A stretch of 46,572 nucleotides of DNA. Source: a virus. The number at the start of each line of letters is the position of its first letter. The stretch's first letter is position 1. The notes below the pieces were generated by a model. It was given only the letters and a program-made list of their open reading frames with translations, was not told where the DNA came from and ran no database searches. The stretch spans positions 1 through 46,572 of IMG/VR virus record IMGVR_UViG_3300036851_000258; one strand, given 5' to 3'. This document shows positions 21,939-46,572 of this stretch, piece by piece. The translations under genes and the position numbers were made by a program.

Positions 21939-22708
21939 AAATGCCTCCAAATCGTCCGATTTATGCCGAATTCGACCCGACGTTGCACCGCGCTGATTGG
22001 TCTGACCGTGCCATGCTTCCGCAGGATGAGCGTCTGGTTGCGCGCAATGGCCGCCTGCCCGGCCCGGGTGTCCAGAACTGGCCGTTCGTGGTGTAGGTGG
22101 ATGCCGCTGATGGCGTCGTCGAACGCGAAATCCAGCCCGGTTTGCCACAACCGGAAGTAAAAGTCGTCGTCGTCGAACCACAGCCCGTCAGCGAACCCGT
22201 CGTCCATCCCGCCGACCTGCCGCACGTTCGCCATCGGCCCGGCCCAAATGAACCCGAGCGGGCGGGGGTGGGCTGCGTCCACCAGCAGGTTGCCGGGTGC
22301 GGTACCACCCCAATCCACCTCGCGCCCGCCTGGCCCGCACGAACATTCCGCCTTGCCGAACACAATCGACTTGGGCTCGCGCTCTAGCCACGCCCGCACC
22401 CGCTCGACGTTACCGGCCTTCTGCACCGTCTCGCTGCTGAACGCGAACAGGTGGTCGCCGGTCACGGCTGCAAACCCGGCATTCCACGCCAGCACGGGCG
22501 ACCTCCACCCCTTCGGCCCATCGATCTCAACGAACCGCGTGCGGGGGTCGTCCGTCCACCACGTCCGAATGAAGTCAACCAGCGCGTTCGGTGTCCGGTC
22601 GAGCACAATCACAAACTCATCGTGTGTCTGATCGCGCATGGACTCGAACACGGTTTGCATTACGGATATGTCGCGGTCGTGGATGGTGATCAGAGCCGAC
22701 AATTTCAT
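21935..22708 (-). CDS. Glycosyltransferase, GT-A fold (family 2-like)
   Basis: 257 aa. LSALITIHDRDISVMQTVFESM and FVIVLDRTPNAL form the nucleotide-sugar binding half; WRSPVLAWNAGFAAVTGDHLFAFSS replaces the usual DxD region; DGLWFDDDDFYFRLWQTG is the late acidic motif. It transfers a sugar from an activated donor; acceptor unknown. Starts 4 bases inside the radical SAM gene, so the two are co-translated. Confidence 0.75.
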   Translation of the reverse strand: MKLSALITIHDRDISVMQTVFESMRDQTHDEFVIVLDRTPNALVDFIRTWWTDDPRTRFVEIDGPKGWRSPVLAWNAGFAAVTGDHLFAFSSETVQKAGNVERVRAWLEREPKSIVFGKAECSCGPGGREVDWGGTAPGNLLVDAAHPRPLGFIWAGPMANVRQVGGMDDGFADGLWFDDDDFYFRLWQTGLDFAFDDAISGIHLHHERPVLDTRAGQAAIARNQTLILRKHGTVRPISAVQRRVEFGINRTIWRHL

Positions 22709-23802
22709 GGAAACTCCGCATGCTTCGGCCTCGCGCCGAGGATATATGCCGCCGCCCGATTTTTGCTATTGAACTGACACCGCTCGCATCCCCTCGCGTT
22801 GAACTTGGCGAAGTCAGCCTTCCGCTCCGCGCTGTTCCAGAACTCGTCAAATGGTCGCGTGGTCAGATTGCCTCCGTCGATGAGCCCGCGCTTATTATAC
22901 GCCAGCACGCAGCAGCGGTAGGCGTTCAAATCCCCGCCCACATACGCCGTGAAATGCTGGTACGCGCACACGTCGTAGTCCGGCGGTCCGTCGAACAGGT
23001 CTTGCAGGCGATCGGTGAATAACTCGTACACGGTGAACGCCGGCGAGTCGTAATCCGCCTTCACGTCGCGCACCGCCTTGAGCACGTCCTGGTAAATATC
23101 TTGGTAGGGGAGTGCATTGTCGGGGCTGAACATGGCCGACAACCGAATGTATGCCGCCCCGGCCTCGCGCACTAGATGAGTCGCCTGCCGCACCTCGCTC
23201 CAGTTATCCGGCGTCACCACGTAGCCGACGCCGAGCACGCAACGTTCTCTGTTGGCAATGGTTGCCAGCCTGCGCACGTTATCAAGCACGCGCTGAAAGT
23301 TGCCGGGTGGTGTCTGCCGGATTCGCGCATACGTCTCTGGCGTGCCGGCGTCCAGGCTGACGCGTACCCACGCGAATTCGCGCAACTGGGCTATAAGAGC
23401 GGGCGACCACGCAACGCCATTGCTTACCAGCGAGCACGAGAATCCGAGGTCGAGCGCGCGTTGGAATATCTCCACGTGCTGCTTGTGGACCGTGGGCTCC
23501 CCGCCGCCCGTGAATTGTAGCCCCTCGACGCCAAGCCGCTTGCACTCGTCCAGCAGAGAGAACGCGCGCGGCCCCGGCATCTGCCGCACGGGATTATTCG
23601 TGCCGTACTTCGCCTTCTCCGACTCGCCGACGAACAATTCGTTAGACGTGTATCCATCCATGCGATAGGCGCAGAAGCTGCAATTTTGGTTGCACAAATC
23701 ACTGAGAATAATTTGCACCTGTTTGGGCGCGTCCGGCAACCCGCCATCGCGTAGCATGTGCCACGCCATTTTTAGATCGCTGTAGATGCCGCTTTGGCTC
23801 AT
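22705..23802 (-). CDS. Radical SAM enzyme with SPASM-like C-terminus
   Basis: 365 aa. CNQNCSFC (Cys 37, 41, 44) is the CX3CX2C cluster motif. FTGGGEPTVHKQ is the SAM-binding GGE motif, and a TIM-barrel pattern follows. The C-terminus has YRCCVLAYNKRG and GCERCQF, the extra Cys set of SPASM/twitch enzymes that modify peptides or sugars. It would hold at least two Fe-S clusters. Partnership with glycosyltransferases suggests sugar or peptide tailoring. Such an enzyme is unusual in phages. Confidence 0.85.
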   Translation of the reverse strand: MSQSGIYSDLKMAWHMLRDGGLPDAPKQVQIILSDLCNQNCSFCAYRMDGYTSNELFVGESEKAKYGTNNPVRQMPGPRAFSLLDECKRLGVEGLQFTGGGEPTVHKQHVEIFQRALDLGFSCSLVSNGVAWSPALIAQLREFAWVRVSLDAGTPETYARIRQTPPGNFQRVLDNVRRLATIANRERCVLGVGYVVTPDNWSEVRQATHLVREAGAAYIRLSAMFSPDNALPYQDIYQDVLKAVRDVKADYDSPAFTVYELFTDRLQDLFDGPPDYDVCAYQHFTAYVGGDLNAYRCCVLAYNKRGLIDGGNLTTRPFDEFWNSAERKADFAKFNARGCERCQFNSKNRAAAYILGARPKHAEFP

Positions 23803-23838
23803 CCCCGCGCCGCGCTCCTCTCTGGGTCAAACTTTAGA

Positions 23839-23934
23839 GGTCTGCTGGCGCGATTCGAACGCGCTCTGCCGGTGCAAGCACGCTTATCACCGGTAGGGGG
23901 TGCTTCCCGCCTGCTCCTCCAGGCCGCAGCAGAC
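23839..23934 (-). tRNA. Unusual tRNA-like element (96 nt)
   Basis: It fills the gap between two cassette genes. On the minus strand: 8-bp acceptor stem GTCTGCTG/CAGCAGAC (23934-23927 with 23847-23840); D-like arm GCCTG/CAGGC (23924-23920 with 23913-23909); a 6-bp arm CCGGTG/CACCGG (23893-23888 with 23874-23869); and a canonical T arm GCGCG-TTCGAAT-CGCGC (23864-23848). The 8+5 bp acceptor/T geometry and length resemble bacterial tRNA-Sec. The anticodon arm is degenerate: one fold gives the loop CCCTACC with CTA in anticodon position. U8 and A14 are missing and CCA is not encoded. Not a normal tRNA; possibly a decayed, suppressor or regulatory tRNA mimic. Confidence 0.5.
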
Positions 23935-23938
23935 CACA

Positions 23939-24580
23939 TCATCGAGTCGTGCTCCTGTCCACGTCAAACTTGTAATGGTAAAGCGTCTCGCCCAACTGCA
24001 CCTCCGTCTTGGCGCGCCCGCACGCCACATCAACCCAGCCCACATCCTCGCCGAATTGCTGCTCGGGGAAGCGAATGTCGGCAACCATCTCCCGCCTCCA
24101 CACCATCGTATGCGCGGGCGGCCCGGTCCACAGCAGGGTGTTGGGTGACGCCTGGCCGTTGCCGTCTACCTTCGGCGCCAACTGCCTGCGGCTCTCCGGC
24201 GGCCGGTTGCGCCAGTGGTCGAGCGAGTACGAGCACTCGTGGACGATGCCGTGCGGCGCGAGCGTGGCGCGCTGGCCGAAGCAAATCACGTCGGCCGGCG
24301 GCACCTCCTTCCGCGTCTTGGCAATGGCGCGGTGGATGCGGCTGACGTAATCGGCGGCCACCTCGTCGTCGTCGTCGATCTGCGAAACATACTCACCACG
24401 CGCCGCGCTCAACAAAACATTCCTTTTCTCGCCGACTGTCCGTCGTTTGTTATCCAAAAAGAAAAGTAACTCTATATCTGGGATTCTGGCGACAGACTGC
24501 GTCTCTAGCAATGAGTAGAGCAGAGGTTGCACAAGATGGTAGCGTTCTGGCACGCCGCAGATTAGGATTGACCAGAGCGT
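23939..24580 (-). CDS. Glycosyltransferase family 2-like, apparent ACG start
   Basis: 213 aa if started at 24580. TVGEKRNVLLSAARGEYVSQIDDDDEV (split motif: GEKRN, then DDDD metal site) and EQQFGEDVGWVD define a GT-A glycosyltransferase. A GTG at 24553 gives 204 aa but removes LWSILICG, the first beta-strand of the fold. The longer frame has AAGGAGG seven bases before an ACG codon where ATG is expected, and no other start. Either ACG initiates or an ATG has mutated. Confidence 0.75.
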   Translation of the reverse strand, partial: TLWSILICGVPERYHLVQPLLYSLLETQSVARIPDIELLFFLDNKRRTVGEKRNVLLSAARGEYVSQIDDDDEVAADYVSRIHRAIAKTRKEVPPADVICFGQRATLAPHGIVHECSYSLDHWRNRPPESRRQLAPKVDGNGQASPNTLLWTGPPAHTMVWRREMVADIRFPEQQFGEDVGWVDVACGRAKTEVQLGETLYHYKFDVDRSTTR

Positions 24581-24768
24581 ATGTAATCCTCCTTAGACAT
24601 GAGAACGCCAATCATGTATTCCTGTGCTTTAGCATGGCTGACTAGACCGCCACCGCCACATGTCCTGCATTGAAATTGACAACCAGGATGCCCGCCTCCA
24701 CATGTATCGCAACCAGTTCCGCCACAGGCCGGGCACTCGTCCTCATCGTGCTTGGGCAGATGCAGCAT
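24562..24768 (-). CDS. DnaJ-type zinc-finger protein
   Basis: 68 aa from ATG 24768 with AAGGAGG upstream. CPACGGTGC, CDTCGGG and CRTCGGGG are CxxCxGxG repeats as in the DnaJ central domain. There is no J-domain. It may help fold or hold a partner protein, or bind nucleic acid. It lies between two glycosyltransferases. Confidence 0.7.
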   Translation of the reverse strand: MLHLPKHDEDECPACGGTGCDTCGGGHPGCQFQCRTCGGGGLVSHAKAQEYMIGVLMSKEDYIRSGQS

Positions 24769-25687
24769 TCTCAACCTCCTTGATCAGAGCGGCCCACTTC
24801 GCCTTAATAACCGGCTTGTCAAATTCAGCGCGCCAGTAATATCGAATTGCCTCTGGATCTATATAAGCAACAAGCGCCTTGCGAACGGCCTCCGTGAAGT
24901 GCTTTGGATCATTAACGGTGAGCCCAGGCATGCTATCGCGTTCCCAATAAACGCCAACCTCAGGAGCAACTATTTGCAGCCCGCACGCCCCCATCTCGAT
25001 GCCGGCGAGATGCTGACTCTCGCTCCGGCTGGTGCATAGTCCCACGCGGCACGCGCCAATCACCCCGACCAACTCCTCATGGGTAAGCCTCACATACACC
25101 CGCAGGTTGGGCGGATAGACTTCCGGCGCCGCGTCCTTGAGCACGGCCACGAACGGAATGTCGGGGTTCTGACGCACCACCCGGATGAAGATATCCCACC
25201 CCTTGATGTGCCCGGCAGCGCCCTGCGCCGCCCCAACCCAGCACACGCATCCATCCGGCAGCCCGAGCGCCTGTTGGCAGCCCATCGCGTTTTGCGGCTC
25301 GAATGTTGAGAAGTCAACTGGCAGGGGGATAACGTGACCATCCGGCAAGGTTGGGTACTTGGACTTACAAAACTCGCTGTTAAACACTACGACCCTGCTT
25401 GTATTAGCTACGTCGATCTGCATCTTCCTCTGCGGCCCGTCGGCGATTGTGTCTTGGAGTAAACCAATCGTGGGTACATGCTCGCTCGCCTTGAGCGGCG
25501 GGAACCACGTGGCGTTACGGATGATGAGCGAAACTCCTCCATCGCCCGCCATCGAATCTGCCACAGTTGCCAGGGTTGCATAGTCGCCTCCGATAAATTC
25601 TGCGCCGGCCCACTCCTGCAAATCGTGCCAAAACGTGCGCGTGCCGGGGATTTGAGTTAGCGCATCGTTCACCAGCAGCCGCCTCAT
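24743..25687 (-). CDS. Glycosyltransferase, GT-B fold (family 4-like)
   Basis: 314 aa from ATG 25687, overlapping the FkbM stop (ATGA). VVVFNSEFCKSKYP and the PLPVDFSTFEP region, CVCWVGAAQGAAGHIKGWDIFI, then CTSRSESQHLAGIEMGACGLQIVAPEVGVY (the E...E donor motif) are typical of family 4 enzymes. It transfers a sugar from a nucleotide donor to an unknown acceptor. Confidence 0.75.
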   Translation of the reverse strand: MRRLLVNDALTQIPGTRTFWHDLQEWAGAEFIGGDYATLATVADSMAGDGGVSLIIRNATWFPPLKASEHVPTIGLLQDTIADGPQRKMQIDVANTSRVVVFNSEFCKSKYPTLPDGHVIPLPVDFSTFEPQNAMGCQQALGLPDGCVCWVGAAQGAAGHIKGWDIFIRVVRQNPDIPFVAVLKDAAPEVYPPNLRVYVRLTHEELVGVIGACRVGLCTSRSESQHLAGIEMGACGLQIVAPEVGVYWERDSMPGLTVNDPKHFTEAVRKALVAYIDPEAIRYYWRAEFDKPVIKAKWAALIKEVENAASAQAR

Positions 25688-44172: not shown

Positions 44173-45638
44173 TGGCCATCCAGTTCAGCGAACTGCCGCC
44201 GGAGGTGTTCCCGGAGACGGCGCGCCCATACATCGGCCGCTTCAACCGCCAGATGCGCGATCTGTTCGGTCTGGAGAGCGTGCTGCGGAATCCAATTCTG
44301 GCGCGCCGGAGTGACAATACCATCGTACGGCGGTCGGAAGCGCAGGTGGACGTGAGCCGGATTACGCCGTCCATCGTGCAGGTGGTCTCTGGCCAATCCA
44401 CGGTTGTCGGGCTGCCCAATCTGACGTTAGGCACGGCCAATACGGTCGGCAGCACGACCACGGCGGTATCAGTCAACTCGGCCATCGCCCTGTTTGGAGT
44501 CGGGCTGCCGGCAGGACTATCTAGCGCAGCGGCCACCGGCTCATCGGCGTTCGCGTCCCGCTCCGACCACGTTCACCTGTTCCCAACCAGCCTGAGAAGC
44601 ACTGCCAACGCCTCGACTTTGGCGCTGACCGACGATGCCGTGAACCAGACGCTCGCCGGCTCCATTGGCGATCTGTTGCTCAGGCCATCGAGCAAAGAAT
44701 TGAGTCTGCCGATGTTTACGGGCTCCGGCGACGCTCAGTCCAACACGGCCATTCTGAGGTTCGTGGCGCGCACCAATGCAGCCGCATCGTTTCCGTATGA
44801 CAATACCGTGCGCTTTGGCATCGACTCCAGCCTGACTATAGACGATGTTAACACAACATATACGTCACAGACGCACACGCTTTTCAGGGGCTCGCTCACC
44901 ACCACGGCCAATCAGTTGACGGGCTCGACGTTCACCAGCGAGACGAACAGGGTAATTGATCTGACGTTAACTGGTGTGGTTGTCGGAAGCGGGGCCGGTG
45001 TGCATTCTTGGACCGAGCGTACAGGCGCGCTTATCGCTATGAATACCCCTGGCGCGACCGGCACTGGCAACGTGACCGTGACCGACCAATATGGCCTGCG
45101 GATCACCCATGCGCTGCCTGTCGCCACCGGTACGGTGTCCTATGTGAATACGCGCGGCATACAGGTTCAGATGCCGAGGACCGGCAGCACCATCAAACGC
45201 GGTATCGAGTTGGTGACTGATACCACGGGGAGCGGCACGGCGCCGGTCAACAGCGAGGGGTTCTATTGCCAGAAAGTAGCCATCGGCAACACGCGCACAT
45301 CGTATTGGGGCGAGGGCGCGACAACCGGCACCCCGGCCCTGGTTCGCATATTCTTCGCCGATGCACACGCGGTCGGCACTAGCCGCTATTCGTTCTTCGG
45401 AGTGTCCGACACGGCCTATTTCGGCGGCGTGGCCGAGATTGGCGGCGCCCTGCGCCACCTTGGCGCGCAGATTGGCTTGCACGGCAACTCGTCAATCGCG
45501 CAATCAACCGGCTGGAGTGTGAGCAATATCACGTCCACCAAAACACTGAACGGCAGCAGTTTCACGCTGAACGACGTGATGAATACACTTGGGACTGTCT
45601 TGACGTATTTACAGAATCGCGGGGATATCGCAGCCTAA
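44172..45638 (+). CDS. Tail appendage / fibre protein
   Basis: 488 aa from GTG 44172 (TAGTG overlap). An N-terminal helical part (PYIGRFNRQMRDLFGLESVLRNP) is likely the virion anchor. SSAFASRSDHVHLFPTSL is an HxH trimer motif common in fibres; the remainder is strand-rich, ending in a helical STKTLNGSSFTLNDVMNTLGTVLTYLQNRG. It may link nozzle to fibres. Confidence 0.6.
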   Translation: MAIQFSELPPEVFPETARPYIGRFNRQMRDLFGLESVLRNPILARRSDNTIVRRSEAQVDVSRITPSIVQVVSGQSTVVGLPNLTLGTANTVGSTTTAVSVNSAIALFGVGLPAGLSSAAATGSSAFASRSDHVHLFPTSLRSTANASTLALTDDAVNQTLAGSIGDLLLRPSSKELSLPMFTGSGDAQSNTAILRFVARTNAAASFPYDNTVRFGIDSSLTIDDVNTTYTSQTHTLFRGSLTTTANQLTGSTFTSETNRVIDLTLTGVVVGSGAGVHSWTERTGALIAMNTPGATGTGNVTVTDQYGLRITHALPVATGTVSYVNTRGIQVQMPRTGSTIKRGIELVTDTTGSGTAPVNSEGFYCQKVAIGNTRTSYWGEGATTGTPALVRIFFADAHAVGTSRYSFFGVSDTAYFGGVAEIGGALRHLGAQIGLHGNSSIAQSTGWSVSNITSTKTLNGSSFTLNDVMNTLGTVLTYLQNRGDIAA

Positions 45639-46572
45639 TGCCCGGCGCACTCGGAACGACACCGGCCACACAGTCCATCGCCTACGAAGGTGAGGGCGGC
45701 GGCGCGCCCACGACCGCACAGTATATCGTCGGTGCGATTGATGCCGGATTGAGCGCCGAGCGGGTTGTGACTGGCAATACTTGGATCGTCGGTGATACCA
45801 GTGTCGCCGGGCAATGCAAGTGGAACATCGTTGACGCCAGCATAGGCACAACGCAACTGGAGAATCTGTAGGTGACGACCGGCAAGATCGCGGCCGACGC
45901 CATCACCTATGCCAAGTTGCAGAATGTGAGTGCAACGAACAGGCTGCTTGGGCGGTCCACGTCGGGCGCTGGAGACGTAGAGGAAATTGGTTTGGTGGGC
46001 GACGTGACGGTGGCCGGTAACATCGCCACTATAGCGAATGATGCCGTGACGTTCGCTAAGATGCAGAATCTATCCGGTAGCACGCGGTTTGTCGGCAGGT
46101 TCTCGACGGGTGCTGGCGATGCGGAGGATTTAAGCGGCGCGTCGGCCACGCAGATGCTCTCGGCGGTCACATCGGCGGCACAGGGCGTGGCTCCAGCATC
46201 CGGTGGCGGCACGACTAACTTTCTGCGGGCCGACATAACGTGGGCGGCACCACCCGGAGGTGGCGGTGCGGACGCAGATATAACCAGAATTTCCGGTAAT
46301 TCCGGGGTTGCTGGTAACACGATTACTTGGCAGGTGTTGACCGGAAGTTCCACTACATCCGGCGTAACACCCGGCATAGTAATGACTACCAGCGGCGTCG
46401 GCTCTGGAACCTGGAGATTCAATTACCTGCTGCGCTTTGGTACTTCCGCCACAACCACTGGAGTCAAGTTCAATGTGAACCATACGAACACAACGACAAA
46501 CTTTGCTTCGGCGTGGAGGTATGTTGATTCTGGAGCCGCAGCCTCAACTGGAGTAGCCGACGATATTACCGG
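45638..46572 (+). CDS. Tail fibre protein, 5' part, interrupted by an amber codon (partial)
   Basis: ATG 45638 overlaps the previous stop. The frame has TAG at 45869-45871, giving a 77-aa product, then continues from GTG 45872 to the window end in the same frame. The two parts look like one protein: IGTTQLENL-stop-VTTGKIAADAITYAKLQN is a normal fibre repeat (…AKL/AKM, LLGRSTSGAGD, FVGRFSTGAGD) with one codon replaced. Readthrough, reinitiation at GTG (GGAG nine bases before it) or a sequence error are possible. The 3' end probably continues at base 1. Confidence 0.6.

Follow-up and report, generated by a model that had tools for sequence, protein, structure and literature searches.

The minus strand of the virus record analysed here, a stretch of 46,572 bases referred to throughout as the window, carries at positions 23935 to 23839 a tRNA-like RNA of 97 nt that folds as a five-helix cloverleaf, perfect T arm included (GTTCGAATC), and has no usable anticodon arm. 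The element is non-coding, sits between two genes of a sugar-modification cassette at a site where related phages carry other cargo or none, and is not alone in lacking an anticodon arm, as smaller elements consisting of an acceptor stem and a T arm recur after stop codons in other phages. Retention of a tRNA fold from which the decoding arm is missing implies a function outside translation, and the role that we favour, with a confidence that falls a little short of even, is that of a tRNA mimic which may serve as a processing mark for RNase P and RNase Z.

Structure of the element

Read 5' to 3', the element has the layout GGTCTGCTG-CG-GCCTG-GAGGAG-CAGGC-GGG-AAGCAC-CCC-(variable arm)-A-GCGCG-TTCGAAT-CGCGC-CAGCAGACC, and the coordinates of its parts and neighbours are listed in Table 1. 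A tRNA-like RNA on this strand, with a canonical T arm, a D-like arm, a long extra arm and a long acceptor/T stack, had been predicted from the letters of the DNA, and folding, pair probabilities and shuffled controls bear this out, with the stack amounting to 9/5 or 8/5. The acceptor, described in the original prediction as a perfect 8-bp stem, is indeed perfectly paired; its length is 9 bp, and the element starts one base before the coordinate noted there. The T arm has the 5-bp stem and TTCRANY loop of a canonical tRNA and is the only T arm in the whole window whose 5-bp stem is full, the acceptor and T stems form the coaxial stack with a T loop that is typical of RNase P substrates, the loop of the D-like arm offers a GG for elbow contacts, and the variable arm has at least 6 bp. 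At the anticodon position there is only a stub, which can form a 3-bp stem in any of three registers and in none of them the 5-bp stem and 7-nt loop with U33 of a canonical tRNA.

Table 1. Positions in the window of the tRNA-like RNA, its parts and the adjoining genes
Feature	Position	Strand	Basis
Downstream gene, radical SAM/SPASM protein	22705..23802	-	Pfam PF04055 + PF13186
47-codon ORF, ATGA overlap with both neighbours	23799..23942	-	Judged non-coding by codon usage
36-nt leader of radical SAM gene, Shine-Dalgarno-like GAGAGGAG at 23822-23815	23803..23838	-	Sequence
97-nt tRNA-like RNA, five-helix cloverleaf without usable anticodon arm	23839..23935	-	Folding and chance tests
Acceptor stem, 3' strand CAGCAGACC; CCA not encoded	23839..23847	-	Sequence
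Canonical T arm, GCGCG-TTCGAAT-CGCGC, perfect	23848..23864	-	Sequence; T stem pair probability at least 0.959
Long variable arm, CCGGTG/CACCGG with inner and outer pairs	23866..23896	-	Stem pair probability ~0.97
Stub at anticodon position, GGG-AAGCAC-CCC, 3 bp	23897..23908	-	Folding
D-like arm, 5 bp and 6-nt loop GAGGAG	23909..23924	-	Folding; D stem pair probability at least 0.996
Acceptor stem, 9 bp, 5' strand GGTCTGCTG	23927..23935	-	Sequence; partner 23839-23847; pair probability at least 0.967
Upstream gene, family-2 glycosyltransferase	23939..24553	-	Pfam PF00535

The minimum free energy of a 96-mer covering the element is -48.3 kcal/mol (z = -3.35), and none of 200 shuffled sequences was equally stable. 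In shuffled sequence, strict T arms that have a 5-bp stem number 0.13 per window, and when a Watson-Crick acceptor of at least 7 bp is required as well, the combination was seen once in 3000 shuffled windows (~3 in 10,000; an earlier, smaller run had given 0.0025). As the element was presumably picked among many windows, this per-window figure is not overwhelming alone; the case against chance is strengthened by the D-like arm, the variable arm and the stability of the fold, which come in addition to the T arm and acceptor. Hence, the element is confirmed as a real tRNA-like structure.

The possibility of an unusual tRNA

ARAGORN finds no tRNA in the element and no Rfam family matches it at the gathering score, the highest sub-threshold match being to tRNA-Sec (RF01852) at 21.7 bits against a gathering threshold of 47. 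A model made from the single sequence of the element in turn gives ordinary tRNAs up to ~22 bits. Both programs thus reject it as a tRNA, and of the likeness to tRNA-Sec that had been pointed out earlier, the stack and the extra arm stand while membership of the family does not. It had also been considered that one fold might present CTA in the anticodon position, and that the RNA might then read a UAG codon in a tail fibre gene. However, the CTA (CUA) loop has a pair probability of 0.0003, forcing it while keeping the D arm gives a fold of -40.9 kcal/mol compared with -50.8 kcal/mol for the best one (~10 worse), and the loop, in which position 33 is C instead of U, also lacks a purine at 37; there is therefore no CUA anticodon in a stable arm.

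The in-frame UAG itself does exist. A tail-fibre-like frame (45638-45871) ends with TAG at 45869-45871, beyond which 233 codons remain open to the end of the window (46572), with a clear coding signal in the first 75. A GTG directly follows the TAG and has GGAG 9 nt upstream of it, so the interruption can be accounted for without a suppressor: re-initiation would suffice, as would a gene split in two or a simple nonsense mutation. The tail-fibre frame has no match among 13 related records, and in Prochlorococcus phages the match covers only 35 aa downstream of the UAG (query residues 19-53). A suppressor reading UAG through the CTA loop was accordingly rejected on the pair probability, the energy penalty, the missing U33 and the GTG restart. 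More broadly, that the element is a functional but unusual tRNA, be it tRNA-Sec-like, an allo-tRNA or an amber suppressor, is very unlikely; the long stack, the long variable arm and the split tail-fibre-like frame would suit such a tRNA, and the program scores, the unstable CTA arm and the restart signals all speak against it.

Coding potential

The element lies within an open reading frame of 47 codons, and the small genes found in relatives likewise have ATGA overlaps on either side, as would be expected if this were a small protein gene and the tRNA-like fold an accident of its DNA. The codon usage is, however, that of a wrong frame. The ORF scores -13.3, compared with 8.3 +/- 5.7 in pieces of true genes, none of which scored that low, and its GC content at the three codon positions is 0.54/0.77/0.60 compared with 0.61/0.47/0.77, lacking the rise at the third position. 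No phage homologue of the ORF was found, and an open frame at this site has a 28% likelihood of arising by chance, against the roughly 3 in 10,000 per window for the structure. A small-protein gene was rejected on codon usage and is the least credible of the explanations considered, barely deserving of consideration, and the region of the element is treated as non-coding.

Genomic context

The exact fit of the element between two cassette genes, noted previously, proved correct: the glycosyltransferase stop codon ends at 23939 and the element begins 3 nt later, and 36 nt separate its end from the ATG of the radical SAM gene (23802). The surrounding cassette is made up of glycosyltransferases and an FkbM-type methyltransferase, and relatives of it are present in other virus contigs. 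No relatives of the radical SAM protein were found in bacterial genomes. A cysteine-rich, zinc-knuckle-like stretch at 24562-24774 of the window forms a separate small ORF and in one related locus (L002, 2974-3720) is found inside the glycosyltransferase.

Among relatives, the glycosyltransferase/radical SAM junction varies. In two (L143 and L144) it is empty and the two genes overlap by ATGA; two others (L063 and L064) share a gene of ~77 codons at this point, and the remaining ones carry a zinc-ribbon-like ORF (L061), a short basic ORF (L060), or one ORF together with a second that, from its sequence, is apparently an HNH endonuclease (L062). With no insert in some relatives and unrelated small genes in others, the junction is a cargo site into which the element has been inserted, and the RNA belongs to the cargo of this phage rather than to the conserved part of the operon. 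Conservation of the element within the operon was rejected for the same reason.

Searches of 50,697 phage and 72,556 plasmid records yielded no credible sequence homologue of the element, its exact 3' pattern did not occur in viral contigs, and a model (R1) run against relatives and 39 virus records matched only the element itself. As it is a single sequence within the data searched, it offers no covariation. The signs of a mere structured spacer that had been set out beforehand were thus found in part (a low covariance-model score and no homologue of the element), but that description is inadequate because a canonical T arm is joined to a perfect 9-bp acceptor.

A location at a cargo site and an overall plan resembling tRNA-Sec are also what might be left by an acquired tRNA with a long variable arm (of the Ser, Sec or allo-tRNA type) that is decaying, has lost its anticodon arm first and now has no function, and irregular allo-tRNA genes and pseudogenes are known from soil bacteria (PMC7609411). 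We regard such a relic as unlikely. The acceptor, D and T stems do not contain a broken pair, decay should not remove the anticodon arm alone, and no intact parent was present in the phage and plasmid records searched.

Minimal tRNA-like elements in other phages

A scan requiring no more than the D-loop and T-loop motifs led to the contig IMGVR_UViG_3300043754_000046 (loci L150 and L245), in which about a dozen elements join a 5-7-bp acceptor to a canonical T arm through a short linker or hairpin; most of them follow a stop codon at a distance of 0-12 nt, and ARAGORN calls none of them. BLAST searches revealed further unannotated minimal elements in Mycobacterium phage HINdeR, Streptomyces phage Dagobah and several Gordonia phages. 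Overall, such elements are ~41-71 nt long, unannotated and found after stop codons in many phage operons, and have an acceptor that is mostly 6-7 bp and GCCC-type, a short linker and, mostly, A73-C74. Among the matches listed for the compact form in viral contigs, at least 34 were inside ordinary tRNAs and at least 50 were outside them. Of 52 compact elements in the loci fetched, 22 begin 6-9 nt after a stop codon, the commonest distance being exactly 7.

The Gordonia phages VanLee (L371, NC_073474.1 35000-84560, with elements in L371 36500-47500) and Morgana (L370) were examined over stretches of 49.5 kb. Though these stretches are 91-92% coding, the elements are intergenic bar one, lie on the same strand as the flanking genes and are typically followed by the next start codon 29-53 nt away. 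Acceptor helices of at least 6 bp are far more frequent than in shuffled flanks, with 12 found and 0.72 expected in VanLee, 7 and 0.32 in Morgana, and 7 and 0.12 in L150. With a covariance model built from 36 minimal elements (R2), the number of sites matched was 16 for VanLee, 9 for Morgana and 10 for the 109-kb L150 contig, and at least one site was matched in 32 of 38 records, most of which had been chosen for carrying the pattern. Covariation is strong in the alignment of the minimal elements, the members of which were selected partly by pairing. No Rfam family matched the VanLee region, and R2 found no match in five bacterial genomes (150 candidates scored per genome). Minimal elements also occur in L367 and L369. 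A role as attachment sites is not favoured, as there are many copies per genome and most are beside a stop codon. No description of such phage elements was found in the open literature searched. In VanLee, the genome richest in minimal elements, a tRNA-Arg adjoins a gene for a Ro-like RNA-binding protein (L371 30455-32368).

Like the element in the window, the minimal elements of VanLee, Morgana and IMGVR_UViG_3300043754_000046 combine an acceptor with a T arm and have no anticodon arm. The window element differs from most of them in having no A73-C74 after the acceptor and in its length (97 compared with ~41-71 nt), and R2 does not match it at E values up to 1. The gap in size is narrowed by longer forms of 68-77 nt with extra hairpins (L248, L252 and L325) that begin 6-8 nt after a stop. 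A 98-nt form in L245 (11906-12004, reverse complement; 82798 of the contig, minus strand) combines a perfect T arm and an intact 7-bp acceptor with a D-arm-like sequence and a long hairpin replacing the anticodon arm, and is negative with ARAGORN; irregular tRNA-like sequences similar to it are present in L302 and L318. Minimal elements typically lie within ~13 nt after a stop and ~30-50 nt before a start, on the strand of the genes, and the distances of 3 and 36 nt in the window fall within this pattern. Judged from these features, the window element is outside the minimal class by sequence and model and inside it by placement and logic.

Proposed role in transcript processing

The element keeps those parts of a tRNA that processing enzymes need (the acceptor-T stack, the T loop and the D-like arm) and loses the decoding part. 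We infer that it is transcribed and cleaved and that this affects expression of its neighbours. In such a scheme, the RNase P of the host would cut the polycistronic sugar-modification transcript at the 5' end of the element, right behind the stop of the glycosyltransferase gene, and the 3' end of the element would be formed by RNase Z or 3' exonucleases. The upstream mRNA would thereby be parted from the radical SAM mRNA, which would be left with a leader of 36 nt and its own ribosome-binding site. A role in punctuation by RNase P and RNase Z is favoured because the RNase P RNA of E. coli efficiently cuts an acceptor-T stem-loop alone, and RNase P also acts on the phage RNAs M3 and C4 (PMC11143913).

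In addition, the fold and chance tests, the non-coding signal, the geometry of 3 and 36 nt, the Shine-Dalgarno sequence in the leader, the junction that is empty or differently filled in relatives, the many phages with minimal acceptor and T-arm elements right after stops and the longer forms with extra hairpins argue for a processing mark. Against it are the absence of an R2 match, the single sequence within the data searched, the missing A73-C74, the fact that related phages manage without the element, and an acceptor which, at 9 bp, exceeds that of usual RNase P substrates. The retained acceptor and elbow are equally what enzymes of the tRNA acceptor end or elbow see, and a decoy binding such enzymes, or an antisense or regulatory RNA of the C4 RNA kind, would have precedents among the regulatory RNAs of phages that RNase P cleaves (PMC11143913). 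No target or partner was found and related phages do not conserve the element, and we consider this explanation improbable, somewhat more so than that of a decaying tRNA.

The wider proposal, which we put forward with slightly more reserve than that for the window element itself, is that phages may punctuate polycistronic transcripts with tRNA mimics devoid of an anticodon arm, host tRNA-processing enzymes cutting between the genes; the window element would then be a single, elaborate example, and the operons of actinophages would carry arrays of the minimal form. If so, many unannotated intergenic gaps in phages would be explained. As named phages (Gordonia VanLee and Morgana, Mycobacterium HINdeR) carry the elements, the idea of punctuation is directly testable.

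Comparison with known systems

Like tRNA-Sec (RF01852), the element combines a canonical T loop and an enlarged D arm with a long variable arm and an acceptor/T stack of the 8/5 type. It differs in the ninth acceptor pair, in a D arm of 5 bp and 6 nt, and in having no UCA arm, as UCA does not occur in any anticodon-like loop. As described in a review of the work of Mukai et al. 2017 (PMC7609411), allo-tRNAs have an anticodon and a 12-bp branch of the 8/4 or 9/3 form. The element resembles allo-tRNA-like genes in its long variable arm, long acceptor and extra G-1 pair, and shares structural irregularity with those irregular members that, according to that review, are unused for translation in E. 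coli (PMC7609411). Unlike allo-tRNAs, it has a T stem of 5 bp and hence a 9/5 or 8/5 branch, has no anticodon and is located in a phage operon. Since it lacks defining features of tRNA-Sec, of allo-tRNAs and of canonical tRNAs, it is classed as a variant of tRNA-like RNA distinct from these families.

With the M3 and C4 RNAs and the model substrates of RNase P, the element has in common an acceptor-T stack of the kind recognised and a phage origin, and cleavage, established for those RNAs, is predicted for the element. Mitochondrial transcripts are punctuated by tRNAs located between the genes of a polycistron, and the placement of a tRNA shape between polycistron genes is the same in the window, though mitochondria use working tRNAs whereas this operon has one element, which has no anticodon. 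If host RNase P does cut phage mRNA gene by gene at such sites, this would be a viral form of mitochondrial tRNA punctuation.
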